Shown: piece by piece, positions 17,924-31,838 of the stretch | Layout of the letters: each line of letters starts with the position of its first letter | Numbering within the stretch: the first letter of the stretch is position 1 | DNA from: Bacteroides sp. 214 | GTDB taxonomy: Bacteria; Bacteroidota; Bacteroidia; Bacteroidales; Bacteroidaceae | DNA length: 64,000 bases | Reading direction: 5' to 3' | Assembly: GCF_010501015.1 (NCBI RefSeq) | Contig: NZ_QVML01000002.1 | Span: 62,001 to 126,000 of the forward strand | Notes under the pieces: model-generated | The model's input: only the letters and a program-made list of their open reading frames with translations | What the model was told of the DNA's origin: nothing | Database searches by the model: none | Made by a program: the position numbers and the translations under genes

Positions 17924-18033
17924 GCCATAAGCATTCAGTACAAATACTATAAGCATCTGAGGCGAATGCCATAAGCAAACGGGGCGAATGCTATAAGCAA
18001 ACGAGACGAATGCTATAAGCATTTGAAATAAGA
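17924..18033 (+). repeat. five-unit 22-bp tandem array, GCCATAAGC word
   Basis: The word GCCATAAGC or a close variant (ACTATAAGC, GCTATAAGC) starts at 17924, 17946, 17968, 17990 and 18012, exactly 22 bp apart. Most units also end in GAAT. The inter-word bases are only partly conserved. The array begins 61 bp upstream of the radical SAM start and is followed by a second 22-bp array. No coding sequence uses it. Confidence 0.9.
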
Positions 18034-18052
18034 GTTATAGGTAATGTTTTTT

Positions 18053-18127
18053 TTGACTGTTTTTTGCTTCACTTCTGACTGTTTTTCACCTCGTTTCTGA
18101 CTGATTTCTTAATACAAAAGCAGTCAG
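18053..18127 (+). repeat. 22-bp array, TGACTG word with inverted last unit
   Basis: TGACTG starts at 18054, 18076 and 18098 (22 bp apart), in the context TTCTGACTG for the last two. A fourth copy in inverted orientation (CAGTCAGAAAA) starts at 18121. The array directly follows the GCCATAAGC array. Confidence 0.8.
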
Positions 18128-18135
18128 AAAATTAT

Positions 18136-18231
18136 GTGAATACCCTGTGAAGGATAAAAGAGGGGGTCTTCACACGTAACTCACTAAATACCATTTGATT
18201 ACAGCGATATGTGAATGTGAAGACCTTTTTT
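18136..18231 (-). repeat. TTCAC composite element, copy 1
   Basis: This segment holds five GTGAA/TTCAC half-sites starting at 18136, 18147, 18169, 18211 and 18217 and a 10-bp inverted repeat (18165-18174 with 18216-18225). Positions 18197-18225 match 31696-31724 on the opposite strand at 25 of 29 bases. The half-site orientation pattern and spacing are the same as in copy 2. It lies in the gap between the HxlR stop and the radical SAM start. Confidence 0.8.
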
Positions 18232-18274
18232 GTAAAAGTCTATTTGGAGTGTATAGTAACCTATTGGGCGGATA

Positions 18275-18646
18275 TTATGTTTTGTAATAGTTGCTTCTGT
18301 TTTCCATAATTGTATTCATGTTATTTTCTGCCCAATCTACCAATGCTTGCAGGTGAGGGAAAAGACATTCTCCTAATTCTGTTAACTCATACTCAACTCT
18401 TGGTGGAACTTCGGCATAAATTTCGCGCCTCACAATTCCGTCAGCTTCCATCGAACGTAAGGTTACGGTTAGCATCCGTTGTGAAACATCTCCTATGGTG
18501 CGTTGTATTTCATTAAACCTCAGTTTGCCGTTGACTTTCAATGTTGTCAAAATAAGGATAGACCATTTGTCGCCCAAAGGGGCAATTACATCGCGAACCG
18601 GACAATAACCACTGGTTTCAAATTTCTTCAAACTTTTTTCCTCCAT
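18275..18646 (-). CDS. HxlR-family winged-helix transcriptional regulator
   Basis: 123 residues. The family core is clear: CPVRDVIAPLGDKWSILIL, then LRFNEIQRTIGDVSQRMLTVTLRSMEADGIVRRE (recognition helix and wing) and VEYELTELGECLFP. Cys15 sits at the N-terminal position used as a redox sensor in relatives such as HypR and YodB, so thiol or electrophile sensing is possible but unproven. It is divergent from the cupin gene at 18799, and inverted repeats in the shared intergenic region fit autoregulation and control of that gene. Confidence 0.92.
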   Translation of the reverse strand: MEEKSLKKFETSGYCPVRDVIAPLGDKWSILILTTLKVNGKLRFNEIQRTIGDVSQRMLTVTLRSMEADGIVRREIYAEVPPRVEYELTELGECLFPHLQALVDWAENNMNTIMENRSNYYKT

Positions 18647-18679
18647 AACTCTCTCTCTTTCAATAATAGTTACACCAAA

Positions 18680-18692
18680 GTAAGTATCTTAC
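18680..18692. promoter_or_regulatory. candidate HxlR operator, dyad 1
   Basis: GTAAGTATCTTAC is a perfect 5-3-5 inverted repeat, 34 bp upstream of the hxlR-like start and about 38 bp before the cupin -7 box. HxlR-type dimers bind short dyads, so this is a plausible operator. Confidence 0.45.
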
Positions 18693-18729
18693 CGTTATGT
18701 GCCTTCTTGTTTTATTAAAACGGTCGCCC

Positions 18730-18737
18730 TACCTTTG
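18730..18737 (+). promoter_or_regulatory. -7 promoter box for the cupin gene
   Basis: TACCTTTG is an exact -7 match. A TTCTTG-like sequence lies 20 bp upstream at the -33 position. Confidence 0.55.
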
Positions 18738-18755
18738 CTGTACAAAAGTAATAAA

Positions 18756-18770
18756 GTTACGAAAAGTAAC
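18756..18770. promoter_or_regulatory. candidate HxlR operator, dyad 2
   Basis: GTTAC-GAAAA-GTAAC is a perfect 5-bp inverted repeat with a 5-bp spacer, between the cupin -7 box and its ATG. Binding here would block transcription from the cupin promoter. Confidence 0.35.
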
Positions 18771-18798
18771 AATCGTTGATAATTAAAACTTTAATAAC

Positions 18799-19221
18799 AT
18801 GAACAACGTAAAAAAAGTAGCAGAGAATGAGAATTTCACAGCTGTGGATTTAGGTAAGCTGTCACTCTTACCCGAAACCGCTAATGGGAAAGCGTTTTTG
18901 AAAGAGATTACAAAAGCAACCGGTACGGAGATTTCTCTAAGTGTCTTGCCTGCCCGGACAGATCTTCCAATTTTTCATTCCCATAAGCAGAATGAGGAAA
19001 CTTATATTATTCTGAGTGGAAAAGGTAAATTTCAGGTTGATGATCAATGCTTTGATATTTCGGAAGGAAGCATAGTACGTGTAGCTCCTACCGGAGTTCG
19101 TGGTATGACCAATACTTCTGATGAACAGATGGTTTACATTGTTATTCAATCAAAAGAGAAGTCGTTGGAACAATATTCAATGGAAGATGGTGTTTTGCTA
19201 GAGGTAACTCCACTTTGGTAG
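18799..19221 (+). CDS. small single-domain cupin protein
   Basis: 140 residues. The cupin motif 1 region is HSHKQNEETYIILSGKGKF (His56, His58, Glu62 approximately) and motif 2 is near SEGSIVRVAPTG, where the usual His is not obvious, so metal binding may be incomplete. No catalytic function can be assigned. It is divergent from an HxlR regulator with dyads in between, which makes it the likely target, and it is followed by a strong bidirectional terminator. Confidence 0.85.
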   Translation: MNNVKKVAENENFTAVDLGKLSLLPETANGKAFLKEITKATGTEISLSVLPARTDLPIFHSHKQNEETYIILSGKGKFQVDDQCFDISEGSIVRVAPTGVRGMTNTSDEQMVYIVIQSKEKSLEQYSMEDGVLLEVTPLW

Positions 19222-19225
19222 AAAG

Positions 19226-19270
19226 AGAGCGTACACGTATCTGGTTGTGGGATACGTGTACGCTCTTTTA
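19226..19270. terminator. bidirectional terminator between convergent genes
   Basis: A perfect 16-bp stem (19226-19241 with 19251-19266) and 9-base loop is followed by TTTT on the plus strand. The opposite strand also ends in a T-rich tract. It separates the cupin gene from the convergent pectin-lyase-fold gene. Confidence 0.85.
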
Positions 19271-19272
19271 AC

Positions 19273-21819
19273 TTATTTCCACTCTACGGTCATATCTTTT
19301 ATTACACTTGCACCTCCCCATACTGTTCCGGTATGCTGGAAACCAAATCCACCGAAGGTGTTAGGGGTGAATTCTGTTTCCATATACACTTCTTTTACAA
19401 GTCCTTCGCGTTCGGGAGTGATGTTCTCCGGAAGTTGTTTGGCTGTTGCGATAAGTTTATTTCCGCGTGCCTCCAGTGTGATGCGGCAGTCGGGTTTATA
19501 ACAAGTCGTACTGACGGGTTCGCTAATAGCTTGTGCTTTGCCATTTTCATAACGTACAAACACCATGTCAATTGCATTGCCGTACTTGGTGGTGCGTACT
19601 AATCTTAATGCGTAGCCATTTAGTGTTTCGGTGTCAAACTTGATGAATACATCCATGTATTGCGCTGTTGCACTGGAAAATCCCTGTCCTGCCGTCTTAG
19701 CTGGTACTGCGGTAAATTCCATTTTCATATTGCCAAAACTATTGCCAACAGGAGTGTAGCGTAGTCTTGCTCCTTTTGTATTTTGTACAAAGCCAAGGGC
19801 ATGCGCTGCTCCATTTACACCATATCCATAGTACCAAGGATCTATCTCGGTGTTAGCTTCCCACGGGAATTCGTTCGTGTCTTCGGGAGCGAAGGCGTCG
19901 AGAGTAAAATATCCGGGACGAACGAAAGGTTGTGTTCGTGAAGAGATGCTCTTGAAATCAAGCTTCATGGGATTGACAATCCGTGTCTCTTTGGTTTGTA
20001 TGGCTCTTCGGGTTATCAATCTGGTAACTTCTCCTACTTCCGAACGTAAGTCTTTGGGTTCGATAGTTGCCAGAATGTAAGAACCTACATCGCCCGGTGT
20101 AAGTATATACTCGCGCTTAGGTTCATTCATGCGCGAAACGGCCACTTCAATGGCGTTGTTGCCCAATTTGTCTGAACAGCGATACCATGTAATAAGTGAT
20201 TGATCGGGATACTTGGTGTCGAGGGCATAGTTTATGCTTAGTTTACTATCACCTTCGATGAGCTTTGGCTGACGTTTAAATACTGGCGCAGCCAGCACTT
20301 CGGGCAATATATAAAAGGCTGCCGCAGCTTCCAGTCCTGATGTTGAAGTTGCGAAAACTAAGATTTTCTGTAACGAGTCGCTTTGGTTGGTAGGAAATAG
20401 CGTGCAAGTTCTTTTATCGGTCGAAGATAAACGGGCGTAAGATTGGTGCTCTTGTGCAATGCTCCAGGTGATATCCTCGCTAACAGGTACTTCGATGTTG
20501 CCAAAACGTTTCATGACTGTATGCAAGGCAAGTGAAGACTTTCCGGTTTCTAATGTATCTTGACTGGTAGATATACGTAGTTGCATAGGTATGTCGGTGT
20601 AGCGTTTTCCCTCCTGTAACTCTGCTACAAGAGTTGCTTCTTTAAGGTTCATAGGATCCCAATCGTCGTTTCCTTGTAATAGACCGTAAAGATTGTACTG
20701 CAATTTTCCGTTTTGCTTGAAGTAATAGGCATCCATCAGCGGTTTTCCGGTCATGACTACGGTGTTCAGCGGATTGTGTCCTTTACCAATGATAAAGGGT
20801 TTATCGTTGAGGGTGACGTTGTGTTGGTAGTTGCGACATTCGTCTGCAGGGAAGTCACGCCAACCCCAGTAGGTTGTTCCGTTGTCGCTCAAACGAGAAT
20901 CAAGTACTGCTACCTGGTCTCCTCCTTTGGTAAAGAATTGTTCGTTACTATTGCTTACGCAACGTATGTCGCAGTTCATAAATATAGCTCCTGTATAGAT
21001 GGTACTTCCAAAGGGTTTGGAGGAATAAAAATCGAATGTGCAGTCGAGGTGTATTGCTGTCTTGCACAAAGCGTCATCCGTTTGTTCAAAATGGCAATTA
21101 ACAAATAATACGCGCTTGCCACTTCCGTAAAAAGGCATGGTGTTGAGACGGCTGATGAAATGGCAGTTCTTGGCAAATACCCGGTCGCTATTACATAGTA
21201 TCAGTTGTGCTTGTACGATAGCTTCGCCACGTTTTTTGCGATTAAACTCGGGTTTGAGTGGATATTCCAAGTCTATATTACAATAGTTGGCAAAGGTTAT
21301 ATTCTCGGTAGTAATGTCATCGCCTGTTATCTTGAAGAGTGTGAAGTTTCCTTTAGCCCCCATGGTTTGTCCGCGGTTCGCAGCAATAATTACGTGTTCG
21401 GGGTTACTAGATAGTCCGTGAAACTTCAGGTGGTTACACTTCAGGATGATGCCGTAAGGAAGACCCTCACCTTCTTGTGCTACACGGATAGCCGGATCGT
21501 CGGGGTCGTCAATCCAATATACATAGGGTGCTATGTGCAGCGTCATAGGAGCTTCTTTGGTGCCATCGGAAATTTGCGCCACAGCATCGTTTATACTATT
21601 AAATACATAGGGTAAGTTTGCCACAATGTGGTCGGGTAGCTGTCCGTCGATAAAGAAAGAGTGTGCTCCCAAATCAATACGCTCTCCTTGATAAATAATG
21701 TGGTCAAGATTAAACTCAATAGGATTTTCGGCGTTCAGTGGGGTATACACGAACGGAGTACTTGCCGATAGGCTAAGTGCAAGACACAAAAGTGTGCAGA
21801 AAAGTGTTCTTCGTTTCAT
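19273..21819 (-). CDS. secreted pectin-lyase-fold protein, pectinesterase-like
   Basis: 848 residues with a cleavable signal peptide (ends near LSASTP). Residues about 55-380 read as a right-handed beta-helix related to pectin methylesterases: SINDAVAQISDGTKEAPMT, HLKFHGLSS, ITTENITFANYCN, VQAQLILCNSDRVFAKNCHF, VLFVNCHFEQTDDALC and FMNCDIRC. The esterase hallmark DFIFG is not present; the nearest segment is CTFDFYSSKPFG, so activity on pectin is doubtful. The middle holds Ig-like repeats, and the end (about 640-848) resembles a laminin-G/DUF1080-like beta-sandwich that may bind sugar. Substrate unknown. Confidence 0.7.
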   Translation of the reverse strand: MKRRTLFCTLLCLALSLSASTPFVYTPLNAENPIEFNLDHIIYQGERIDLGAHSFFIDGQLPDHIVANLPYVFNSINDAVAQISDGTKEAPMTLHIAPYVYWIDDPDDPAIRVAQEGEGLPYGIILKCNHLKFHGLSSNPEHVIIAANRGQTMGAKGNFTLFKITGDDITTENITFANYCNIDLEYPLKPEFNRKKRGEAIVQAQLILCNSDRVFAKNCHFISRLNTMPFYGSGKRVLFVNCHFEQTDDALCKTAIHLDCTFDFYSSKPFGSTIYTGAIFMNCDIRCVSNSNEQFFTKGGDQVAVLDSRLSDNGTTYWGWRDFPADECRNYQHNVTLNDKPFIIGKGHNPLNTVVMTGKPLMDAYYFKQNGKLQYNLYGLLQGNDDWDPMNLKEATLVAELQEGKRYTDIPMQLRISTSQDTLETGKSSLALHTVMKRFGNIEVPVSEDITWSIAQEHQSYARLSSTDKRTCTLFPTNQSDSLQKILVFATSTSGLEAAAAFYILPEVLAAPVFKRQPKLIEGDSKLSINYALDTKYPDQSLITWYRCSDKLGNNAIEVAVSRMNEPKREYILTPGDVGSYILATIEPKDLRSEVGEVTRLITRRAIQTKETRIVNPMKLDFKSISSRTQPFVRPGYFTLDAFAPEDTNEFPWEANTEIDPWYYGYGVNGAAHALGFVQNTKGARLRYTPVGNSFGNMKMEFTAVPAKTAGQGFSSATAQYMDVFIKFDTETLNGYALRLVRTTKYGNAIDMVFVRYENGKAQAISEPVSTTCYKPDCRITLEARGNKLIATAKQLPENITPEREGLVKEVYMETEFTPNTFGGFGFQHTGTVWGGASVIKDMTVEWK

Positions 21820-21846
21820 GATGTTTGTGTTATTTTGAATACAGTT

Positions 21847-22734
21847 TTATTTCTTGTGCAATATAATAAGGAGTACGGCTCCCAACACCAACACAATTCC
21901 TAATATGGCATGTGCGCTGAGTGTTTCCTGAAAAACGATTACCCCGACAATCAGTGCTGTAACTGGTTCCATAGCACCCAACACCGAAGTCAGCGTAGAA
22001 CCAATCCGCTTGATGGCTTGTACCAATGAGAGGTTGGATACTACTGTGGGTATCAATGCCAAAAGTAGTAAACTTTGTGTGGATTCCCAACTTTCAATAG
22101 GATGTAATCCGCCTCGGAATTGAAGAATGATAAAAAGAAAACCTCCGCCAATAAGAAAAACATAGAACGTAAGCCGTAGTCCGCTAAGGTGTTTAATATT
22201 AAGTATACTGACTGTAACCAGATACAGAGCATATCCTACCGCTGAAATAAGAACAATGATAATACCTATTATTGAAGTGGTACCTGTACCATCATACGAA
22301 AGAAAGAAGACTCCTGTAACGGCAAGCAGTACAGCGATAATGCGTCTTGCTGATTTCTTTTCCTTAAAGAATAACATCATCATTAGCGTAGTGAAGACCG
22401 GGTACATAAAGTGCAATGTAGTGGCTACACCGCTACCCATGTATAGATATCCCCACATGAGAAACAGAGAACTGATGTCGTAAAATATAGCCAGTACCAC
22501 CAATGACCAAAAATCTTTTAATGTGATTCGGAATGATTGTTTGGTTATCATCAATACAACTGCTAAAGCAACGCAGGCAAATAGAAACCTGTAAAACAAA
22601 ACAGAGTCAAACCCCATGCCTTGCTTCAATAGTGGAACAGCAAAAAACGGTATTAATCCGAAGCTTGCCGAAGAAAGTACTCCATAGCAGAACCCCTTAA
22701 AGGTTTCGGATTGTGTTTTCATTCGTCCAGCCAC
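21847..22734 (-). CDS. EamA/DMT-family membrane transporter
   Basis: 295 residues with ten hydrophobic helices in two EamA repeats. Each half ends in the family pattern (FMYPVFTTLMMMLFFKEKKSARRIIAVLLAVTGVFFL-type in the first; LGAMEPVTALIVGVIVFQETL in the second). Exported or imported substrate cannot be predicted. Its start overlaps the end of the Sua5/YciO-like gene by 16 bp, so the two are co-transcribed. Confidence 0.88.
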   Translation of the reverse strand: MAGRMKTQSETFKGFCYGVLSSASFGLIPFFAVPLLKQGMGFDSVLFYRFLFACVALAVVLMITKQSFRITLKDFWSLVVLAIFYDISSLFLMWGYLYMGSGVATTLHFMYPVFTTLMMMLFFKEKKSARRIIAVLLAVTGVFFLSYDGTGTTSIIGIIIVLISAVGYALYLVTVSILNIKHLSGLRLTFYVFLIGGGFLFIILQFRGGLHPIESWESTQSLLLLALIPTVVSNLSLVQAIKRIGSTLTSVLGAMEPVTALIVGVIVFQETLSAHAILGIVLVLGAVLLIILHKK

Positions 22735-23327
22735 CCCTTTCCTTGTCGTGTAACTACGGGTGAATCGCCAAGACAGTCCACAATTGTTGATTCTTCACTG
22801 TCGCCTTCGCCTCCATCAATAATGAGATCTACAATCTCGCTAAACTTATCATTTATAAGTTCGGGATGTGTAACATACCCTTCGTCTTCATCTTCATCAT
22901 GGTGTAGGGTAGAGGTCATGATGGGAGCTTCCAGCAATTCAATGAGTTGGAGGAGGATATTGTTGTCGGGAATACGTATGCCTACTTCCCTGCGGTTTTT
23001 GTAGATTTTTGGTAAGTTATTTCCGGTATTCAGAATAAAGGTGAAGGGACCGGGCAAGTTCTTTTTTAATAACTTAAAGGTGTTGTTGTTCATCTTTGCA
23101 TACTCGCTTACCATGCTTAGATCTTTACAGATGATGGATAAATTGTTCTTGCGTGGGTCTATACCTTTAAGGCGGCAAATACGTTCTACAGCCCGTTCTT
23201 TTAATCCATGACACCCCATGGCGTAACGAGTATCAGTGGGGTAGATGATTACGCCACCGTCATTGAGAATGTCGATCACCTGCTGAAGATCGCGGGGGTT
23301 AGTGTTTCGTTCGTAGAGTTTTAACAT
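22719..23327 (-). CDS. Sua5/YciO/YrdC-family protein
   Basis: 202 residues. The YrdC fold is shown by GGVIIYPTDTRYAMGC, LKGIDPRKNNLSIIC, LPGPFTFIL and REVGIRIPD. Members bind threonine, bicarbonate and ATP to form threonylcarbamoyl-AMP for the t6A37 tRNA modification; the short form and acidic DEDEDEGY insert point to the YciO branch, whose activity is less certain. A second copy of the pathway enzyme may exist elsewhere in the genome. Confidence 0.85.
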   Translation of the reverse strand: MLKLYERNTNPRDLQQVIDILNDGGVIIYPTDTRYAMGCHGLKERAVERICRLKGIDPRKNNLSIICKDLSMVSEYAKMNNNTFKLLKKNLPGPFTFILNTGNNLPKIYKNRREVGIRIPDNNILLQLIELLEAPIMTSTLHHDEDEDEGYVTHPELINDKFSEIVDLIIDGGEGDSEESTIVDCLGDSPVVTRQGKGWLDE

Positions 23328-23354
23328 AGTATAGAGTATTGAGAATTAAACATG

Positions 23355-23394
23355 ATAGGCACGACGGCTTTGTTTTCTTGCCGGTCGTGCCTAT
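23355..23394 (-). terminator. stem-loop upstream of the AsmA stop / downstream of its 3' end region
   Basis: An 11-bp perfect stem (23355-23365 with 23384-23394) lies between the AsmA stop (23405) and the Sua5-like start (23327). On the minus strand it is followed by a weak TTTAATT tract, so it is a probable but not strong terminator for the AsmA gene. Confidence 0.5.
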
Positions 23395-23404
23395 GCTCTG
23401 TTTC

Positions 23405-25897
23405 CTATTTCTTTATTTTATCAAGCAGTCCTTTTATGGCATCCTTTGTTTTGCTGCCTTTATCGGTATCTGTTGCTGTAGAGTCTGTTGCAGTGGAATC
23501 ATTCTTGTTGCTACCCAGAACTTTGTCGAGTAGGGATTCGGCAACATTTGTTACAGCTTGTTTACCCATACTTGCCAAGTCTACACCTACCTTAGGAGAT
23601 GACATCTCTCCGGTGATCTTCAGGTCGAATGTAGTGAGCGAAGCAACCTTTCCTGCAGAGGCGGGAAGTTGTATCTTACCACTATAGTCTACGGTTTGAT
23701 CCAGTCCGGTACTACCCGAAAGGTTCATTACGTAGTCTTTGAACTTGATGTCGAATGGGTCGGTATATAATCTTCCTTCTTTAATTTCGAAGTCCAGATT
23801 CATGTCTTTTACAGAAATGTTCTTGAGCTCTTCCTTGCCTACCGCGTCTGCAATTTTGTCAATTACGTCCACACCGCTTAAATTGAGGTCTTTAGTGGAG
23901 AGGTTACCATTTCCTTGCATAGTATTCAGTACGGGGCTCATCTGCTTATCCAGTAATGTTTGTACTGTCATGCTACCCGAATAGGTTCCTTTTAGTCCCT
24001 CAAAGATAGGCGCCATTTGTTTTACCATATCCAGTTCTTTGTAGGTCTGTGCAAAACTTAGATCAGTCATTTTGAATGAAGCATCTACTTCGGGTTTCTC
24101 AATGTCGGCAGTAGAGTAATGTCCGTTCATTACGATGTTGCCACCCATGGTGTTCATAGAGAGACCTTTCATGTTAGCAATACCATTATTAACCTTCAAG
24201 TCTCCTTTTATATTGTCAATATTCATTGCACCAAACACTACCTTCTTCATATTGACCGTCATGTCAAAGTCAACGTTTTTAGGAATCTCGATGAGGTTCA
24301 TCGGTACAGTGTCTGTAGTGGTTGTGGTTTCTTCGCCACTCATAAAGTCGTTGAGGTTGAATAAGTTGGAGCTGATATTAAGTTTCCCCTTTATTACGTT
24401 GTCTTTCAACGCGAATCCCATGTAGTTCTCAAAGTAACAGTCGGCAGTGATGTCGTTCTGACCAATATTTACTGTGGTTTCGCTTAATTGAAGACGTTTC
24501 GGTGTGAAGGTAAAGATTGATTGATGTATGTCTACATCTGGAATGTCTTTCATCTTTAACTTCATGTCGGTTAGCTTGATATTTCCTGAGGCAGTAAGGC
24601 GGTCATATTGTTCATTTTCTATATATGACATACGCCCTGCCATAGCAAAGTCCGCGTTTACAATACCATTTAATTCCATCTCTTCAAGTGGATACACATC
24701 TTTAATCTTTCCAAGATCAAGCACACCGTTTGTATTTACATTGAAAGCAGCATCACTGATAGGTGTTTTTACCTCTGCCGTCATGCTAAATGGATTGTTT
24801 GCCAATCGGAACTTGAATGGATTAACCTCTACTATGGTTAAGTCAGCACTACCTCCCGGATTGCTTGCTTTGGCACTGATATTGATTTGATCTACTCCCG
24901 CAGGTAATGTAGGATATTGGAACATGGCATTCTTTACCTCGATAGATGCATTGAATTGTGGTACTGTATCGCCCTGTAAAATACCTTTAGCGTGTGCTGA
25001 TAAAGTAGCTGTTCCTTCAGTCTTCAGATCCTTGAACTCTTTGGAGTAGATGGCAGGAACCAACGATAAGATTTCTTTGAATCCTACTTCACTGGTGTTC
25101 AGTGTAAGATCCATATCCATTGCCGGGTCTATCATAGCTATCCATCCGTCTATACCTGCTTTGATGGCATTAAGGCGTAGCTCATTTTTAGCTAGGGTAA
25201 ATTTCATATTCTTCAGGTCGGCATCTACGTTCATCTTAGCATAGAAGTTCACTCCGTTAAGGAATGGTACACCACCCATTTTATAATAAAGAGCAGGTGT
25301 TTCTGCTTCAAGCTTTAAGACTGTTTGGTCGCTACCAAGATCACCCGAGCAGGTTGCACCTAGTTTTTTAATTTCGGCATACATGTTTCCTTGACGGTCA
25401 TCGTAGATAATGTTCACATTGTCTAGAATCAGCTTATTAAGCTTAACAGAGAAAGAAGCCGAATCTTCGGTAGTCTCTTTTGTCGTTTCTTCGCTATCAC
25501 TGGGTTTCATGATGTCCCAGTTAGCCTTTCCGTCTGCCAATACGATAGCTTTAGCGTAAGTATTTACAATGGCTATTTTACTAACTTCGTAGCCGCTGTT
25601 ACCAAGGAGTGACATCAAATTAACGGTAGCTGTAAGCTCGCCAGCGTGTACCAGTGTGTCGTTTTCAAACTCGTTAATACCTTTCAGCCAGAAATCCTCA
25701 ATCGTAATAGATGCTTTGGGGAAATTTTTGAAAAGGCTGATGCTTAGTTTGTCAAAGTCGAATTGTGCATTAAGCATTTTGTTACCTTCACTTTTAACAA
25801 GCCCTTCAATCTTTCCTCTGAAAGCGAAAGGTAACACAATCATCAATACCAGTATTACTGCTACTATGATTCCTGCAATCTTTAGTCCTTTTTTCAT
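23405..25897 (-). CDS. AsmA-family inner-membrane/periplasmic protein
   Basis: 830 residues. One N-terminal membrane helix (about 7-25) is followed by a long periplasmic part of repeated beta segments with the AsmA hallmarks: FDKLSISLFKNFPKASITIEDFWLKG near the N-terminus and, near the C-terminus, KDLNLSGVDVIDKIADAVG, YSGKIQLPASAG and LKITGEMSSPKVGVDL. The extreme C-terminus is a Lys/Asp/Ser/Thr-rich tail. AsmA proteins are thought to form lipid-carrying bridges or to affect outer-membrane assembly; that role is inferred. Separated by 41 bp from the upstream helicase gene. Confidence 0.88.
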   Translation of the reverse strand: MKKGLKIAGIIVAVILVLMIVLPFAFRGKIEGLVKSEGNKMLNAQFDFDKLSISLFKNFPKASITIEDFWLKGINEFENDTLVHAGELTATVNLMSLLGNSGYEVSKIAIVNTYAKAIVLADGKANWDIMKPSDSEETTKETTEDSASFSVKLNKLILDNVNIIYDDRQGNMYAEIKKLGATCSGDLGSDQTVLKLEAETPALYYKMGGVPFLNGVNFYAKMNVDADLKNMKFTLAKNELRLNAIKAGIDGWIAMIDPAMDMDLTLNTSEVGFKEILSLVPAIYSKEFKDLKTEGTATLSAHAKGILQGDTVPQFNASIEVKNAMFQYPTLPAGVDQINISAKASNPGGSADLTIVEVNPFKFRLANNPFSMTAEVKTPISDAAFNVNTNGVLDLGKIKDVYPLEEMELNGIVNADFAMAGRMSYIENEQYDRLTASGNIKLTDMKLKMKDIPDVDIHQSIFTFTPKRLQLSETTVNIGQNDITADCYFENYMGFALKDNVIKGKLNISSNLFNLNDFMSGEETTTTTDTVPMNLIEIPKNVDFDMTVNMKKVVFGAMNIDNIKGDLKVNNGIANMKGLSMNTMGGNIVMNGHYSTADIEKPEVDASFKMTDLSFAQTYKELDMVKQMAPIFEGLKGTYSGSMTVQTLLDKQMSPVLNTMQGNGNLSTKDLNLSGVDVIDKIADAVGKEELKNISVKDMNLDFEIKEGRLYTDPFDIKFKDYVMNLSGSTGLDQTVDYSGKIQLPASAGKVASLTTFDLKITGEMSSPKVGVDLASMGKQAVTNVAESLLDKVLGSNKNDSTATDSTATDTDKGSKTKDAIKGLLDKIKK

Positions 25898-25938
25898 AAT
25901 TCTTATTTGGGTTTATTTAATATATTGAACATGTTGTT

Positions 25939-27939
25939 TTACGCTTTTTTCTTTCGTAATTCTTCTGCAATGCGCCACTGTATAGCAGCACGGTCTTCTT
26001 GTCCTGCTCGTAACAAGGCATCTCCAAAGAGTTCGTGTGCCTTGGCATGCTCAGTTTTGAAGGTGGTTGCCTTGTCAAGGTCTGCAATGGCTCCTTCCAC
26101 ATCGTCTATTTTAAGACGTAGCTTGCCTCGGTTGTATACAGGCTTGAAATCGGCCGGACGCAATTTTACCGCTGTGCTGAGGCAGTATTCAGCTTCGTTG
26201 TACTCTCCTTTATTATAGAGGGTAATGCCTTTGCGAATCCAAGCATCTGCCATTTCGGGATATAGCTCGATTGCTTTGTCGTAATTGGCAATGGCTGCTC
26301 GTGCGTCGTGAGCTTGTGTAATAGAATCGTTTCCCAGTTGGTAATATTCCTGTGCAAAACGTTCGAGGCTCTTTCGCTGTATGGCAAGCTGCTCTTTCAA
26401 ACTATTATTTTCAACACGCAAATGGTTGATAATGTTCAACTTCCGACGGATAAATCGTTGAATAGCCGGTTTTTCAATATCATAACGCGCATGTATGGCA
26501 ACAAAGAAGTGCTTCAAGAAGGTCTCGAATTCGCCTTTATCGAATGCTTGTGTAGCTTTGCGGTACTCAATATCTGCTTGCGCTTGCTTCATTGCTTTAT
26601 CAATAGCTTGCTGATTATTAAAACGCTGTGCAAAGTGTACTATCTCCGGGCGAACAAATACATCGCTACGGCTTATTTGTTTTTTAAGTTGAATACCTTC
26701 TAATGTAGTGCAACGACTGAGTGCTACATATGCTTGTCCGCCAGCAAATACTCCTCCTGTAAAGTCTACAATAACATGGTGGAAGGTAAGTCCTTGGCTT
26801 TTGTGGATTGTTATCGCCCAAGCCAGACGTATGGGGTACTGTATATACACACCCAATTCTTCTTCCTCTATTTCCTTTTTCTTCTCATTATAGCGGTAGC
26901 GAATGTTGCGCCATGAGTCTTTGTTTACATCAAACTCCTGCCCCTCGTCGGTTATCACATAGATAGTACCTCCCTCGCTGATACCACTTACCACCCCGAT
27001 AGTACCGTTTACCCACCTGCGCTCGTAATCGTTTTTTATAAAAATAATCTGAGCACCGGGTTTCAGTACAAGCTCTTTGGGAGTAGGTAGGCTGCTTTCA
27101 GGAAAGTCTCCATTGATTTCTCCCTCAAAGGTAATTGGCTCTCCGGGTAGTTCGGCAAGCTTTTTATCATTGATAAAATCCACATTATCGCGACGTGTGG
27201 CGAGGGTGATATACATATCTTCTTCGCTCTGTTCTATCTTGGAACCATAGCGTGTGTTGAGTAGTTGCAAGTCGGCTGCTTCTACAGTACTGTTGCGTAT
27301 GCGATCCAGTACATTGACGAAAACTCGATCTGTTTGCCGATATACTTTAGTAAGCTCAATGGAAACCAACTCCATTTCATTGAATACCCGTGCCGAAAAG
27401 AAATATGGAGTGGGGTAGAAACGGTTGATGATCTCTCGTTCATCATTCTTGATAACAGGCTCCAATTGAAAAATATCGCCTACGAGCAACAGTTGCTTCC
27501 CTCCAAACGGTTGACGCATGTTATGTGAATAGACCCGCAAAATTTTGTCAATGGCATCTATTGTATCTGCTCGTACCATAGAAATCTCATCGATGATAAC
27601 GAGTTCTGTCTTTTCGAGTAGTTTGCGGTGTTGTTTGTTGTACTTGAAAAATTCGTGTATGCGGTTCTTTTGTAGACTCAGGTTGGGGTCGTCGGGTAGT
27701 AATGGATGAAACGGAAGCTTAAAAAAGCTGTGCATTGTGCTACCACCTGCGTTGATGGCGGCAATACCTGTAGGCGCCAGTACTACGAACTTTTTCTTGG
27801 TATGCTCGCATAAATATTTCAAGAAAGTAGACTTTCCCGTCCCTGCTTTCCCCGTGAGGAAGAGTGACTGGCTGGTGTACTGTATGAGGTTCAGTGCATT
27901 CTGAAACTCTTTGTTATTAGTGTCTACTGTAAACTTCAC
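25939..27939 (-). CDS. Pif1/RecD-like SF1B helicase with C-terminal TPRs
   Basis: 666 residues. The helicase part (about 1-450) has Walker A GKAGTGKST (30-38), motif Ia-like APTGIAA, Walker B VIIDEISMV, motif III QLLLVGDIFQLEPV and the late motif WAITIHKSQGLTFHHVIVD with VALSRCTTLEG, which is the Pif1 type. From about 540 there are two or three TPR repeats (DKAIELYPEMADAWIRKG; AVKLRPADFKPVYNRG). Helicase plus TPR suggests loading by a protein partner. It should unwind 5'-3'. Confidence 0.88.
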   Translation of the reverse strand: MKFTVDTNNKEFQNALNLIQYTSQSLFLTGKAGTGKSTFLKYLCEHTKKKFVVLAPTGIAAINAGGSTMHSFFKLPFHPLLPDDPNLSLQKNRIHEFFKYNKQHRKLLEKTELVIIDEISMVRADTIDAIDKILRVYSHNMRQPFGGKQLLLVGDIFQLEPVIKNDEREIINRFYPTPYFFSARVFNEMELVSIELTKVYRQTDRVFVNVLDRIRNSTVEAADLQLLNTRYGSKIEQSEEDMYITLATRRDNVDFINDKKLAELPGEPITFEGEINGDFPESSLPTPKELVLKPGAQIIFIKNDYERRWVNGTIGVVSGISEGGTIYVITDEGQEFDVNKDSWRNIRYRYNEKKKEIEEEELGVYIQYPIRLAWAITIHKSQGLTFHHVIVDFTGGVFAGGQAYVALSRCTTLEGIQLKKQISRSDVFVRPEIVHFAQRFNNQQAIDKAMKQAQADIEYRKATQAFDKGEFETFLKHFFVAIHARYDIEKPAIQRFIRRKLNIINHLRVENNSLKEQLAIQRKSLERFAQEYYQLGNDSITQAHDARAAIANYDKAIELYPEMADAWIRKGITLYNKGEYNEAEYCLSTAVKLRPADFKPVYNRGKLRLKIDDVEGAIADLDKATTFKTEHAKAHELFGDALLRAGQEDRAAIQWRIAEELRKKKA

Positions 27940-27972
27940 GCGCGTGTTTTGCTTATTCCCTACAAACGTAGT

Positions 27973-28006
27973 AAAAAAAATGATACGGTAAACGACTTCC
28001 GTTTAC
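27973..28006 (-). terminator. terminator after the DUF486 gene
   Basis: A 7-bp perfect stem (27988-27994 with 28000-28006, 5-base loop) is followed on the minus strand by a short spacer and eight T residues (27973-27980). Confidence 0.6.
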
Positions 28007-28027
28007 TTAAGTATATAGCGGAGGTGT

Positions 28028-28396
28028 CTACTTCAGAAAGACGAAGTACACAGCCAATATAAGGCAGACAAAAGCCGCAAGATGGTTCCACTGCAACGTT
28101 TCTCCCTTAAAGGCTATGGTAGAAAACAGCGTGAACACAATCAGTGTGATTACTTCTTGAATAACTTTTAGCTGCATGAGTGTAAATGGGCCACCATTTC
28201 CACTGAAGCCTATGCGATTGGCTGGTACCTGAAAGGAATATTCAAACAAGGCTATAAACCATGAAAACAAGATTATTCCATAAAGTGGCCAACTGCTCGA
28301 AATCTTCATTTCGTGCAATTTCAAGTGTCCATACCATGCAAAAGTCATGAAGACATTGGACATAATGAGCAGCAAAATGGTATAAAAAGCCTTCAT
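28028..28396 (-). CDS. DUF486 small membrane protein (DMT superfamily)
   Basis: 122 residues, four predicted helices. The family pattern is plain: NVFMTFAWYGHLK, SWFIALFEYSFQVPANRIG and FTLMQLKVIQEVITL, with a C-terminal helix FVCLILAVYFVFLK. DUF486 proteins are half-length drug/metabolite-transporter relatives with no known substrate. It starts 8 bp after the HAD phosphatase gene and is probably co-transcribed with it. Confidence 0.9.
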   Translation of the reverse strand: MKAFYTILLLIMSNVFMTFAWYGHLKLHEMKISSSWPLYGIILFSWFIALFEYSFQVPANRIGFSGNGGPFTLMQLKVIQEVITLIVFTLFSTIAFKGETLQWNHLAAFVCLILAVYFVFLK

Positions 28397-28404
28397 GTAG
28401 TGTG

Positions 28405-29175
28405 TTAGAGGACTTCGAAGTGTTGTAGTGCTTTCATGATTCCGTCATTGTCTACACTAGGAGCTACGTAGTCGGCGATGCGTTTTACATCTTCTCCGGC
28501 ATTTCCCATAGCTACGCCAATAGCGGCATGCTTAAGCATAGGAATATCGTTTCCGCCATCCCCGAAAGCCATAGTGTCTTTTAAATCAATTTCAAAGTGG
28601 CGCAATATTTCGTCCATGCCACGGTCTTTTCCGTTGTCTTTGGCTACAATGTCAGTAAACGAAGGATGCCAACGACCTGATGTACAGTGTGGTAATAAAG
28701 GCATAAACTCGCTTTCTTGTGAAGGCGTGATGAATGGAGATACTTGAAATACCTCTTTGCCAAGTATCTCATCGGGACTTATTGTTGCGATGGGTGAAAT
28801 GTTGAGTGTTTCGCAAAATTCGTCGGTAACCCAGCTTTGGTTACATAGAGCAATTCTTTTCTCTTGCACAAACACGCACGAGAGTTGTTGTTTTTTTACT
28901 CTGTTTACCAATACCTCTATATCTTCGTTGGGGATGCTGTTCTTGTAAATAACTTCATTGCCGGCATAACAATATGCACCGTTCATGGTGATAAACCCAT
29001 CGAAAGTTAGTTTACCTAAATTATTTATGATTGTTTTAGAGCGTCCTGTGGAGATAAAAACCTTTATGTCTTTTTCTCTTAACGCATTGATTGCCTCAAT
29101 AGTAGATGTGGGAATAGTATGAGTCTTGAAGCTAACTAACGTCCCGTCTATATCAAAAAATATAGCTTTTATCAT
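28405..29175 (-). CDS. Cof-type HAD-IIB sugar-phosphate phosphatase
   Basis: 256 residues from MIKAIFFDIDG (ATG 29175). Nine further codons are open upstream, but the promoter box at 29200-29207 lies within them. HAD motifs: FFDIDGTLV (Asp8, Asp10), ISTGRS, and AFGDGGNDIPML with a preceding Lys in KDNGKDRGMDEIL. The IIB cap is between about 85 and 190. Substrates in this family are diverse phosphorylated sugars or cofactors; none can be chosen here. Confidence 0.9.
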   Translation of the reverse strand: MIKAIFFDIDGTLVSFKTHTIPTSTIEAINALREKDIKVFISTGRSKTIINNLGKLTFDGFITMNGAYCYAGNEVIYKNSIPNEDIEVLVNRVKKQQLSCVFVQEKRIALCNQSWVTDEFCETLNISPIATISPDEILGKEVFQVSPFITPSQESEFMPLLPHCTSGRWHPSFTDIVAKDNGKDRGMDEILRHFEIDLKDTMAFGDGGNDIPMLKHAAIGVAMGNAGEDVKRIADYVAPSVDNDGIMKALQHFEVL

Positions 29176-29199
29176 TTGTTTTCTTTTGATTTTGCCCAG

Positions 29200-29207
29200 C
29201 AAAGGTA
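29200..29207 (-). promoter_or_regulatory. -7 promoter box for the HAD gene
   Basis: The minus strand reads TACCTTTG, an exact -7 match 24 bp upstream of the ATG at 29175. Confidence 0.5.
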
Positions 29208-29227
29208 CACAATTCTTTTTTTAATGC

Positions 29228-29235
29228 TACTTTTG
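29228..29235 (+). promoter_or_regulatory. -7 promoter box for the PatB-like gene
   Basis: TACTTTTG is an exact -7 match. It faces away from the HAD box with only 20 bp between them, and it rules out the long reading frame that begins at 29176. Confidence 0.5.
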
Positions 29236-29256
29236 CTAATGCAATTTATATTAAAA

Positions 29257-30432
29257 ATGGCTATGAGGTACAATTTCGACGAAGTGATAGACCGTAGCGG
29301 TACAGATGCTGAAAAGGTAGAGGGTGTAAAAATATTCTGGAATCGCACAGACTTGCTGCCTATGTGGGTGGCGGATATGGATTTTCGTACAGCTCCTTTT
29401 ATTGTTGAAGCTCTTCGTGAGCGACTTGATCATGAAATATTAGGCTATACTTTTCGGTCGGACGCGTGGTACGACTCCATTATTGAGTGGCTAAAACAAC
29501 GTTTCGAATGGAATGTTACGCGCGAAATGCTGAACTTCTCACCGGGAGTAGTACCTGGTTTTACTATGGCTATTCAGCAATTTACGCAACCCGGCGATAA
29601 AATAATGGTGCAAACGCCGGTTTATCATCCGTTTTTCTTATCGGCCGAGCGAAATCATCGCGAGGTAGTGTACAATCCACTGAAACTAGTAGATGGTCGT
29701 TACGAAATGGATATGCCTCTTTTTGAAGCACAGATAAAAGATTGTAAGATGCTTATTCTATGCAATCCGCAAAATCCTAGTGGCAGGGTGTGGACTAAGG
29801 ATGAGTTGCAAGCGATAGCTAAGATATGCTATGAGAGTAATGTTCTTGTGGTATCCGATGAAATACATGCCGACCTTACTTTCCCGCAATATCGCCATTA
29901 TCCGTTTGCTACCGTCTCTGAGGAAGCGCGTATAAACTCCATAACGCTGATGTCGCCAAGCAAAGCATTCAATATGCCGGGGCTCTCAACTTCATATGCT
30001 GTTATTCCTAATGAAGAACTTTGCAAGCGTTATGCCGAGCAGGTTGCTATCAATAGTGTAGGCGAAGGTCATCTGTTTGCCTTTCTTTCTGTGGCAGCCG
30101 CGTATAGTCAGGGCACAGATTGGTTGCATCAAGTGCTGGCTTATGTACAAGAAAATATAGACTATATGGATAGCTTTCTTAAAGTGCACGTACCAAAGAT
30201 TAAAGTTATTCGTCCGCAAGCTTCCTATTTGGTCTTTTTGGATTGCAGGGAGCTTGGATTATCACAAGAAAATCTGCTTCGCTTTTTTGAAGACGGTGCA
30301 CACTTGGCTTTGAACAATGGTGCAATGTTCGGAGCGAATGGCGAAGGCTTTATGCGAATAAATGTAGGTTGTCCGCGTGTTACGTTAGAACAAGCTATGA
30401 AGCAACTACGAGATGCTTTTCTTACTCTCTGA
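29257..30432 (+). CDS. PatB/MalY-type PLP-dependent C-S lyase or aminotransferase
   Basis: 392 residues from ATG 29257 (a second ATG, 29263, is equally possible). The open frame runs back to 29176 but crosses the promoter. Fold-type I aminotransferase features: WVADMDF near the N-terminus (typical of MalY/PatB), SPGVVPGF, YHPFF, NPQNPSGRVWTK, VSDEIHADL and the PLP lysine in SPSKAFNMPGLSTSY; C-terminal MRINVGCPR with the substrate Arg. Cystathionine beta-lyase activity is the usual annotation; not proven. Its last 11 bp overlap the end of the convergent gene. Confidence 0.9.
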   Translation: MAMRYNFDEVIDRSGTDAEKVEGVKIFWNRTDLLPMWVADMDFRTAPFIVEALRERLDHEILGYTFRSDAWYDSIIEWLKQRFEWNVTREMLNFSPGVVPGFTMAIQQFTQPGDKIMVQTPVYHPFFLSAERNHREVVYNPLKLVDGRYEMDMPLFEAQIKDCKMLILCNPQNPSGRVWTKDELQAIAKICYESNVLVVSDEIHADLTFPQYRHYPFATVSEEARINSITLMSPSKAFNMPGLSTSYAVIPNEELCKRYAEQVAINSVGEGHLFAFLSVAAAYSQGTDWLHQVLAYVQENIDYMDSFLKVHVPKIKVIRPQASYLVFLDCRELGLSQENLLRFFEDGAHLALNNGAMFGANGEGFMRINVGCPRVTLEQAMKQLRDAFLTL

Positions 30433-31336
30433 TTAGCGGCAGGGTAGAGCAACGCAATAAACCACCCATTTTGGAGATCTCGTAATAGGGAACTCGTTCT
30501 ACGGTCATTCCCCAAACTTCCTCCATGTGTGTGTTTAAGCGGACGAAGTTCTTTTCGGATACCACAACCTCGGGTGAAATAGAAAAAACGTTGCTATTCA
30601 TAAGATACATCTCCTCGCGGGTAAGCTCGAAAATATTCTCTTTGCCAAAAATATCTAAGAGAAGCTTATAGTCTTTCTTGTTTGCAAAACCATCTTTGTA
30701 GATAATTGCCTTGTTGCTGTTTACGGGCATGAAAGTACAATCCAGATGTAATATGCCCGCTCGTGGATCGGTGTCGTTCTTTTTTAACTCCAAAGGAATA
30801 AATGTCTTTTCGGGGAAAAGTTCCTTTAAGAAATTGAGCGCATAGAGATTTGTTCGAGCGGATTTGAGATTGGAGTAATCCTCGCCCAAATAGATACCTA
30901 AAAAAACAATATCATTGTATAATACCACATCCCCACCTTCTACATGTGCCTTTTCGGGTAAGTTGTATATCTTGTTGTAGGCTATTTGGTCGTACACTAT
31001 TTGATAGGCTTCTTTCTCGTCGTCACGATCGGGTATGATGTTGGAGTTGATAATCTTATCGTCAATCACGAATGCTACATCCCGTGCAAATACCTGGTTG
31101 CAATTCTCTATCGTCCAAGGTCGGAATACCTGTACGCCATGCTTCAGCAGTACTTTTTCGAAGATGGACATCTCTTTGCAGATTTCTTCTTCCTTGGGGT
31201 ATGTATTCAATGATACGGTTTCGTAGGACTTGGCATCGTATGTTTCGGTTAAGGTAGGTACTTTGCCTATACTTCCGGGCTGTCCTAGTACAACAGCCTT
31301 TAGCTTTGCGGTTTCGTTTTTTATATGTAGTTCCAT
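30422..31336 (-). CDS. amidinotransferase/arginine-deiminase-fold protein
   Basis: 304 residues. The guanidino-group-modifying fold is shown by KAVVLGQPGS at the N-terminus, FARDVAFVIDD, HVEGGDVV (catalytic Asp/Glu block), LHLDCTFMPV (catalytic His) and the nucleophile Cys296 in LLRCSTLPL near the C-terminus. Candidates are dimethylarginine dimethylaminohydrolase, a deiminase or an amidinotransferase; the motifs do not decide. The 3' end overlaps the PatB-like gene by 11 bp. Confidence 0.82.
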   Translation of the reverse strand: MELHIKNETAKLKAVVLGQPGSIGKVPTLTETYDAKSYETVSLNTYPKEEEICKEMSIFEKVLLKHGVQVFRPWTIENCNQVFARDVAFVIDDKIINSNIIPDRDDEKEAYQIVYDQIAYNKIYNLPEKAHVEGGDVVLYNDIVFLGIYLGEDYSNLKSARTNLYALNFLKELFPEKTFIPLELKKNDTDPRAGILHLDCTFMPVNSNKAIIYKDGFANKKDYKLLLDIFGKENIFELTREEMYLMNSNVFSISPEVVVSEKNFVRLNTHMEEVWGMTVERVPYYEISKMGGLLRCSTLPLIRE

Positions 31337-31361
31337 AAAGTTATTGATAGTATTTCGTATG

Positions 31362-31369
31362 CAAAGTTA
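31362..31369 (-). promoter_or_regulatory. -7 promoter box for the amidinotransferase-fold gene
   Basis: The minus strand reads TAACTTTG, an exact -7 match 25 bp upstream of the ATG at 31336. Confidence 0.45.
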
Positions 31370-31456
31370 CATAAAAATACGATTTGTATTCAAAATAATA
31401 CGAAAAAGTTTTCCCTATTCTTGCATTGCTTAAATCAACTTGAATATGAAAAATCT

Positions 31457-31566
31457 GCTTATGGCTCTTGCACTGTTTGCTTATGGCAAACTGGTCATCT
31501 GCCATAGGCAAACGCTTTGTCTGCTTATGGCTGATGGGATGTGTGCTTATGGCAAATTTTCTCAGT
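31457..31566 (-). repeat. five-unit 22-bp tandem array, GCTTATGGC word
   Basis: GCTTATGGC starts at 31457, 31479, 31523 and 31545, with a variant (GCCATAGGC) at 31501: exactly 22 bp apart. The word is the reverse complement of the GCCATAAGC word at 17924, and the variant unit (GCCATAGGCAAACG) is nearly identical to unit 3 there. Same copy number, same period, 13.5 kb away. Confidence 0.9.
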
Positions 31567-31634
31567 GTTTTTTGATCTGTTTCTCAGTGATTTATTTCAA
31601 AAAAGCAGTGAGAAATGAAGTAGAAAACAGTGAG
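31561..31634 (+). repeat. 22-bp array, CTCAGTG word with inverted half
   Basis: CTCAGTG starts at 31561 and 31583 (22 bp), then the inverted-type word CAGTGAGAAA starts at 31606 and 31628 (22 bp). It directly follows the GCTTATGGC array, in the same order as the pair near 18 kb. Confidence 0.8.
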
Positions 31635-31695
31635 AAATAAATTTTGCTAACGGGTAAGTAGCATTTATTGTCTCTAAATATGCTTTTATGAAATT

Positions 31696-31787
31696 GGCCT
31701 TCACCTTCACATATTGCTGTAATGCGCTAATGGTGAGTTTGTTATGTGTGAAGACCCCTGTCTTTAGGTCTTCACAAGGTCTTCACG
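31696..31787 (+). repeat. TTCAC composite element, copy 2
   Basis: TTCAC/GTGAA half-sites start at 31700, 31706, 31748, 31771 and 31782. A perfect 10-bp hairpin is formed by 31747-31756 and 31767-31776 with a 10-base loop, and a third GGTCTTCAC copy starts at 31778. Positions 31696-31724 match copy 1 at 25 of 29 bases on the opposite strand. Confidence 0.8.
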
Positions 31788-31838
31788 TGTATTTTTGCTC
31801 CCATAATAAATGTTAATTATAGAATGTTTCGCTTGTTG

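Follow-up and report, generated by a model that had tools for sequence, protein, structure and literature searches.

The window, by which the whole 64-kb stretch of DNA under analysis is meant, contains two copies of an element of about 121 bp in its conserved unit, termed M1, whose features are listed in Table 1. Each copy is an array of five TTCAC words, or iterons, and the spacings between the words, read directly from the DNA, are 6, 42, 22, and 11 bp in copy 1 and 6, 42, 23, and 11 bp in copy 2. The preliminary description had given 25 of 29 bases as identical between the copies and five half-sites with a shared orientation and spacings of 6, 42, 22-23, and 11 bp, and direct reading bears out both statements. 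Next to each copy lie arrays of two further types, M2 and M3. M2 is found after many M1 copies of the same genome, while M3 was recognised by eye only, and a pattern search for M3 arrays gave no matches.

Table 1. Iteron arrays in the window and their component words
Feature	Position	Strand	Remarks
M1 copy 1	18129..18249	-	orphan iteron array, P4/VapE-type origin-like
Copy 1, iterons 1 and 2	18211..18221	-	TTCAC cores 18217-18221 and 18211-18215; 6 bp apart
Copy 1, central inverted iteron	18169..18173	+	sequence reading
Copy 1, final two iterons	18136..18151	-	18147-18151 and 18136-18140; 11 bp apart
M2-type array adjoining copy 1	18049..18130		words CTGACTG/CAGTCAGAA
M3-type array past M2 at copy 1	17925..18030		words GCCATAAGCA / TGCTTATGGC, by eye
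M1 copy 2	31672..31793	+	orphan iteron array
Copy 2, iterons 1 and 2	31700..31710	+	TTCAC 31700-31704 and 31706-31710; sequence reading
Copy 2, central inverted iteron	31748..31752	-	sequence reading
Copy 2, final two iterons	31771..31786	+	31771-31775 and 31782-31786; sequence reading
M2-type array upstream of copy 2	31562..31645		words CAGTGAGAAAT
M3-type array, opposite side of copy 2	31455..31560		words TGCTTATGGC, by eye

No helicase gene was found beside either copy, a point against the origin reading given below, and because the cognate initiator helicase gene is absent there, the two copies are referred to here as orphan, origin-like arrays.

The M1 family in the genome

The geometry of the arrays was searched for with a finder that contains no fixed word and asks for two direct words of 6-7 bp, an inverted word after about 42 bp, and, after about 22 bp more, another pair of direct words separated by about 11 bp. 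In the window it matched copies 1 and 2 only, and a looser version matched the same two. A pattern search of the 3.39-Mb genome returned 73 copies, while the reversed pattern returned none. Since the word-free finder gives exactly the two copies and the pattern search gives 73 against zero, the likeness of the M1 copies is far above chance. A lack of further copies anywhere would have spoken against the preliminary description; there are 73 in this genome, and relatives elsewhere.

The exact ++-++ arrangement at 6, 42, 22 or 23, and 11 bp is present in 53 of the 73 copies, both window copies included. An AT-rich melting region is expected between the iteron groups of an origin; the AT content of the spacer between the groups is 61% (70 copies), against 59% for the window. 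When the finder was applied to 335 kb of loci from this genome, 54 of the 55 arrays were of the TTCAC type. The remaining one lies directly 3' of vapE in a mobilizable element that also encodes a DnaG-like primase and NikA-like protein; no DUF3874 match was found in this vapE, which is counted against the origin reading given below. At another locus (L073), an intact helicase gene of 408 aa and an HU-like gene stand between two inward-facing arrays of the TTCAC family, in the order ori-HU-VapE-ori.

The nearest-neighbour distance among 71 sites of the genome is never below 13.4 kb, where 12.9 gaps shorter than 13 kb are expected, and such gaps turned up in every one of 20,000 simulations. With solo M2 arrays added there are still no gaps below 9.5 kb (16.8 expected), and the spacing floor is therefore a property of the composite, beyond M1 alone. 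A floor of this kind was not to be expected in a chromosome and needs explanation.

Arrays beside VapE/Rep helicase genes

In other genomes and in phage contigs, arrays of this geometry occur next to helicase genes. Under the strict word-free search, 30 arrays lie within 900 bp of VapE (227 kb) and none farther out (395 kb), with none in shuffled sequences. The relaxed finder detected an array in 31 of 80 genomic loci (41 arrays near the gene, one far from it; none in either of two shuffle controls). Among 80 phage loci, 24 have an array in the near region of 220 kb, the 29 matches there representing 24 arrays of which five were read on both strands. Each lies 5-181 bp 3' of the helicase stop, and the far region of these loci (456 kb) has none (shuffles, 1 and 0). 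The finder gave no array at 49 of the 80 genomic and 56 of the 80 phage loci, some of which are on cut contigs while others are degenerate or differ in architecture; these loci are likewise counted against the origin reading. The array-bearing loci belong to Bacteroidaceae and Prevotella genomes and to phage contigs, and their words differ between elements. A simple rule that names no word would predict, from sequence alone, the origins of about one third of VapE/Rep-type replicons with very few false matches.

In relatives, as at L073, a helicase gene stands between two inward-facing arrays, and most M1 arrays of other species come in inverted pairs. In the eight loci where the finder detected both arrays, the distance from the helicase gene is 67-215 bp for the array ahead of it and 0-50 bp for the one behind it, too little for an integrase, a primase, or a packaging gene to fit in. 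One genome (G032) has kept its TTCAC arrays though a VapE next to one of these is split into two frames, and this, too, is counted against the origin reading. No match to M1 at the DNA level was found among plasmid or phage records. A looser TTCAC pattern matched ten viral contigs, with the full geometry in none of the ten. VapE relatives are encoded in 294 of the 50,697 named phage records, with 34% identity for the one ranked best.

The helicase matches the PDB profile 7pds (E 1.9e-27), and its structural model aligns with 7pds, PriRep1 with dsDNA, at Z 23.9. For the model of the C-terminal part, Foldseek placed the P4 origin-binding domain (1ka8) third, at E 0.10 and no better than other winged helices, and 1ka8 is absent among the 50 VIA matches listed for this model. 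A library of defence systems gave, for four proteins, one weak match to AriA only (E 7e-4). In 27 loci of other genomes, the distance between words is correlated with that between helicase C-termini when the core is controlled for (partial Mantel r 0.33, p 0.0005), and not with the core given the C-terminus (r 0.003, p 0.50). The iteron word thus appears to track the C-terminal part of the initiator, as a correlation only. This ties DUF3874, an unknown domain, to putative origin recognition.

Interpretation and competing explanations

Because of its origin-like geometry, the arrays beside VapE/Rep genes, the fit to the phage P4 origin (see below), the tracking of the word with the C-terminus, and the L073 unit, the TTCAC element is very probably an iteron replication origin of the P4/SaPI-Rep type, left behind in the chromosome with no initiator gene of its own. 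DUF3874, the winged-helix domain at the C-terminus of the helicase, is predicted to bind the iteron words, and the spacer flanked by the two iteron groups would be the place where helicase hexamers are loaded. Such elements may act as minimal ori-rep-ori replicons. The M1 copies of this genome have spread in part inside MITEs, in which some of the sister copies lie and which have inverted ends of 20 bp and target duplications of 8 bp. Most likely, the window copies now provide binding sites to a cognate Rep helicase expressed from another place in the genome, and travel as its passengers. Satellite-type origins would then be scattered in tens of copies across a bacterial chromosome, and if the orphans bind Rep, local over-replication or decoy action is possible.

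The preliminary description had proposed either a structured RNA or a multi-protein site. The latter proposal is favoured by the anatomy, which is that of an iteron array for a hexameric replication initiator, while the former found no support. A hairpin or cis-regulatory RNA might be suggested by the folding of single copies (z -3.07 for copy 1 and -1.29 for copy 2) and by some copies that directly follow the stop of a gene read the same way, but the upstream gene is co-oriented in only 41 of the 73 copies, about even. Moreover, in the pairing GGTCTTCAC/GTGAAGACC the T-A pair is broken in 9 of 42 copies (six C-A, two T-C, and one C-C), and none of the 42 has a compensated C-G, with one T-G wobble. 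This absence of compensation argues against RNA. The covariation term of RNAalifold is only -0.34 kcal/mol, and at gathering thresholds Rfam has no hit in the window. Considering also that the same geometry recurs at the P4 origin and after helicase genes in phage contigs, an RNA is very improbable.

It is somewhat unlikely that M1 is inert cargo of a MITE, taken up a single time by a transposon whose ends read ACCCGTTGGCGGAATTAATT and then multiplied passively. Near 19 of the 73 copies an inverted end can be recognised on one side or both (≤ 4 edits; a count without shuffle control), the end pattern has 25 matches in the genome against one for the reversed control, and target duplications accompany four of the five composites with both ends (8/8, 8/8 with a one-base shift, 7/8, and 7/8). 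Neutral cargo, however, should decay evenly, whereas in 42 aligned copies, chosen by similarity, the word columns are 99.6% conserved against 82% for the other inner columns (p 3 × 10-10, Mann-Whitney test), and the inverted pairs of other species also speak against it. Neither window copy has inverted ends nearby, and a simple MITE enclosing them was rejected. As for the mover, the IS982 family, which the MITE ends presumably resemble, is not supported, as PF13612 was not found in this genome. Mobilisation as a REP-like element by a RAYT/Y1 transposase is extremely improbable: this genome has two Y1_Tnp genes, but among four genomes searched the array-carrying G032 and G027 have no Y1_Tnp match. 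Precise insertion of a pair was likewise rejected. G101 has a stretch of 0.9 kb beside tRNA-Asp that is absent from G135 and G027; it exceeds the pair, and the insertion boundary is therefore inexact. Among orthologous pairs of G032 and G115, one has kept its ends around interiors of 500 and 449 bp without any likeness.

The orphan arrays might instead be of benefit to the host, being selected as decoys that titrate an incoming satellite or phage Rep helicase or as spacing marks that organise the chromosome. This is unlikely, although selection on the words is suggested by four ends at orthologous sites of G032 and G115, where 0 of 120 word letters are changed against 83 of 368 others (p 8 × 10-12); for the right-hand words, not required by the search, the figure is 0 of 60 (p 1.5 × 10-6). 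The lack of close neighbours among the 71 sites points the same way. Against it, the floor persists with solo M2 arrays added, one word is gone from a fifth orthologous end (the right end of L118 compared with L095), where TTCAC has become TTCAT, 2 of the 73 copies are down to the first two words, and the exact pattern of this genome (G000) occurs on no viral contig of IMG/VR.

Returning to the origin reading, it may tentatively be extended, with doubt prevailing, to a Bacteroidaceae class of minimal ori-rep-ori elements, each with one P4/SaPI-like self-loading helicase gene set between two inward-facing origins, a word specific to the element, and, as far as the short units examined show, no integrase, together with 73 selected orphan origins at least 10-13 kb apart that would serve as an anti-satellite decoy layer or as sites for a domesticated Rep helicase.

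Comparison with known systems

In the parts of the open-access literature covered by the search, no account of ori-rep-ori units or orphan origins in Bacteroidota was found. BrickBuilt and other MITEs of P. gingivalis are intergenic elements of Bacteroidales with inverted ends and arrays of repeats of about 22-23 bp, in which M2 and M3 are alike; their inverted ends and repeats differ from those here, and no comparable iteron array is described in the sections consulted (PMC4596501). With the SaPI/PICI elements there is a likeness in the helicase, which here is a relative of SaPI PriRep1 (7pds). According to the portions of the sources consulted, their iterons form two sets and the origin lies directly downstream of rep (PMC7581432, PMC6092414). 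The elements here differ in the tight bracketing of the gene at the eight loci, in a spacer that is hardly AT-rich, and in that the arrays are mostly orphaned, SaPI being compared by description and not by sequence.

There is also a likeness to phage P4, whose alpha protein binds the ori and crr repeats. In the whole P4 genome (11.6 kb) the finder gives a single match, which is the annotated origin. The type 1 repeats of this origin read ++-+++ at spacings of 10, 43, 22, 11, and 10 bp, against 6, 42, 22-23, and 11 bp in M1, and their word, TGTTCACC, includes TTCAC, the word of M1. P4 crr (+) and ori (-) face inward and bracket alpha, as the Bacteroidaceae pairs bracket vapE; crr reads ++--+, unlike M1, and is missed by the finder. 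Profile comparison of VapE with P4 alpha (hhalign) found no detectable likeness (probability 3.4%), and the common geometry could thus be convergence. The phage genome of P4 carries a single ori and a doubled crr, whereas here 73 copies are found in the chromosome, nearly all without an adjoining initiator gene.

Number, build and conservation of the M1 arrays

The two TTCAC copies of the preliminary description are present as described, both by direct reading and with the geometry finder, a word-free search for two direct words, about 42 bp, one inverted word, about 22 bp, and two direct words about 11 bp apart. They belong to a family of iteron arrays with a unit length of about 121 bp (M1), and the idea that there are no further copies anywhere is contradicted by the own genome (3,394,147 bases, 75 contigs). 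At least 40 copies were found there by BLAST, at least 59 by a covariance model, and 73 by a pattern against 0 for the reversed-pattern control; the pattern needs both left-hand words, so that copies without those are uncounted. An nhmmer search of the fetched loci and the window likewise gave 73 copies. M1 occurs on 24 contigs.

Exactly five words in the orientations ++-++ are seen in 53 of the 73 copies, with spacings of 6, 42, 22, 11 in 47 and 6, 42, 23, 11 in six; the others have a sixth word (10), four words (8) or the first two words only (2). By ORF calling, M1 lies between longer frames (overlap ≤ 38 bp). A short frame (79–103 aa) crosses it in 4/73 copies, and the upstream gene is co-directional with it in 41/73.

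In an alignment of 42 M1 copies (A1), picked by similarity and hence biased toward intact copies, identity is 99.6% in the 25 word columns and 82% in the 61 other inner columns (p = 3 × 10-10); all five words are kept in 38 copies and four in 4. The hairpin pairing proposed earlier finds no compensation in any of these 42 copies. Between the relatives G032 and G115, word letters changed at 0/120 positions and other letters at 83/368 (p = 8 × 10-12) at four orthologous ends, two non-orthologous end pairings (word changes 3/31 and 0/30) being excluded. The right-hand words there, which the search pattern does not demand, changed at 0/60 (p = 1.5 × 10-6). At the fifth orthologous end compared, of six in all (L118 right versus L095 right), one word is lost. 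The same two genomes share an orthologous array pair (L097 and L253) with unrelated interiors (500 versus 449 bp) and flanks about 90% alike.

Dispersal and spacing

After many M1 copies come arrays of 22-bp repeats, M2 (CAGTCAGAA...) and M3 (GTCAGCCATAG...), the latter also reading CCATAGG/CCTATGG, with its core in both orientations. M2/M3 accompany M1 at L025, L049 and many other loci. The M2 pattern has 112 matches in the own genome; among the 57 sites listed, 38 are within 1.2 kb of an M1 and 19 are without M1. Intergenic TTCTCAACANGGTGAG units stand where M2 would be at L014, L021 and L042, and intergenic TATCTCTTCACANNTGTGA units occur at L031, L064 and L071, all of which end near a contig end.

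Inverted ends (ACCCGTTGGCGGAATTAATT) surround part of the M1 copies, at least one end being found at 19/73 (≤ 4 edits). Four of the five composites with both ends have an 8-bp target duplication (8/8; 8/8 shifted by one base; 7/8; 7/8); in the swapped-flank control, the best match averages 4.45 and never exceeds 7. Therefore, part of the M1 copies in this genome spread as MITE cargo; no transposase for the composite was found.

Features of the M1 family and their positions
Feature	Position
M1 copies of the window	18129-18249 (-) and 31672-31793 (+)
M2 + M3 beside the window M1 copies	17925-18130 and 31455-31645
Unit with HU-HIG gene + 408-aa VapE/DUF3874 gene between two M1 arrays	L073 2140-4334 (G000:C44:76.3-78.5 kb)
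Composite MITE, ends ACCCGTTGGCGGAATTAATT + 8-bp target duplications	L025, L020, L084, L085

With two inverted pairs collapsed, the own genome has 71 M1 sites and no gap below 13.4 kb, where uniform placement at unchanged numbers per contig predicts 12.9 gaps below 13 kb; such gaps appeared in every one of 20,000 simulations. The two window copies, 13.5 kb apart, are at this floor. When solo M2 sites are added (18 of the 19 among those listed, from the first 100 of 112 M2 places; one on an M1-less contig was left out), the smallest gap is 9.8 kb, with 16.8 gaps below 9.5 kb expected. The spacing of M1, alone or with the listed solo M2, is far from random. Eight copies lie within 700 bp of a contig end versus 2.3 expected, and draft contig ends could hide some close pairs, hardly enough to explain the floor. 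Target immunity is a possible source of the floor, and so is selection.

Arrays beside helicase genes

Across 158 genomes of the genus, R1 has matches in 9, the own included. At 24 loci from the other eight, tallied by hand, there is an inward-facing inverted pair at 17, an array with a partial second array at 2 (L125, L127) and a single array at 5. Each species has its own words (GCCTTCAC; GTCTTCAC/CTCTTCAC; CACTTCAC), spaced mostly 7–8, 42–45, 19–26, 10–11 and 8–10 bp apart. In G101 and G006 the pair encloses one 393-aa gene for a VapE-like (SaPI-Rep-type) helicase with a C-terminal DUF3874 domain; the pair found after tRNA-Asp in G101 is absent from G135 and G027. The HU-HIG/VapE unit of L073 is likely the autonomous element of the M1 family in the own genome. 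None of the other array pairs contains an intact helicase gene; a SymE-like ORF lies inside one of them.

A scan of VapE loci for any clustered 6-mer revealed the same order with different words, and the geometry finder was then fixed. On the 64-kb window it returns the two M1 copies and nothing else. At 80 VapE loci from GTDB genomes, five of which overlap relatives already used (L166, G006; L192, G150; L179 and L223, G027; L190, G101), the strict finder gave 30 arrays less than 900 bp from vapE and 0 in the remaining 395 kb. The relaxed finder gave an array at 31/80 (both sides at 8; 41 near, 1 far) and none at 49/80. These arrays point inward, except for abutting upstream pairs (L182, L223, L245) and one relaxed match (L180). 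At L205 and L168, the second array is closely followed by a DUF6078 gene; an ORF of similar size follows vapE at L188, L203, L210 and L220.

Among 80 distant VapE-like loci (23–33% identity) on IMG/VR phage contigs, which include several near-duplicates, 24 are positive and 56 have no array by the finder. With five arrays read on both strands, the 29 matches amount to 24 arrays; among the 15 7-mers reported are shifted readings of a single word. Every array lies 5–181 bp past the helicase stop codon, in mixed orientation, with 0 in 456 kb elsewhere and 1 and 0 in shuffles.

Of 55 arrays found by the relaxed finder at own-genome loci (335 kb), 54 have TTCAC-type words. The remaining one (CTTACTA) is directly 3' of vapE in a mobilizable element that also encodes a DnaG-like primase and a NikA-like protein, and whose VapE has no DUF3874 match; it is a second, independent array-vapE link in this genome. 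Near-palindromic arrays (++ ... --; CCTACAC, CTTACAAC) flank other VapE genes at L156 and L165 (G006, G027) and are a variant of the geometry.

Putative initiator and comparison with known origins

The VapE profile has one strong relative in the PDB, 7pds ('similar to D. nodosus vapE', E = 1.9 × 10-27). The AlphaFold2 model of the L166 helicase (mean pLDDT 89) matches this structure, PriRep1 with dsDNA, with a Foldseek E of 6 × 10-18 (Z 23.9, rmsd 8.6 over 375 residues). Its C-terminal 85 residues are modelled (pLDDT 83) as helix-strand-helix-helix-strand-strand, the predicted order being that of a winged helix. Fold matches are mostly winged helices with middling scores (best Z 7.4), and the P4 origin-binding domain (1ka8) is a weak match at Foldseek rank 3 (E = 0.10). 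Divergence is greatest in the C-terminal part, at a mean distance of 0.63 against 0.29 in the core, and iteron word distance tracks the C-terminal distance beyond that of the core (27 loci, mutually related, so that the p-value is approximate).

Since iteron-origin geometry and word-initiator matching are both found and an initiator gene adjacent to the window copies is not, these may be called orphan, origin-like arrays.

According to PMC7581432, the C-terminal domain of SaPI Rep recognizes the iterons, and the origin comes directly after the gene. PMC6092414 describes an AT-rich region flanked by two iteron sets; this AT-rich trait is not clear in M1, whose spacer is 61% AT versus 59% for the window. 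VapE has no detectable profile similarity to alpha, the P4 replication protein. The finder, its limits fixed before P4 was retrieved, reports one site in the P4 genome, the annotated origin, and misses crr (++--+; 9, 43, 18, 14). The 'ori type 1 repeats' annotated in the P4 record read, in ori and on the minus strand, ++-+++ with spacings 10, 43, 22, 11, 10 and the word TGTTCACC. With crr (+) directly after alpha and ori (-) on its other side, the P4 arrays face inward around the gene. Judged from its sequence, the M1 element would work like a P4/SaPI-Rep iteron origin.
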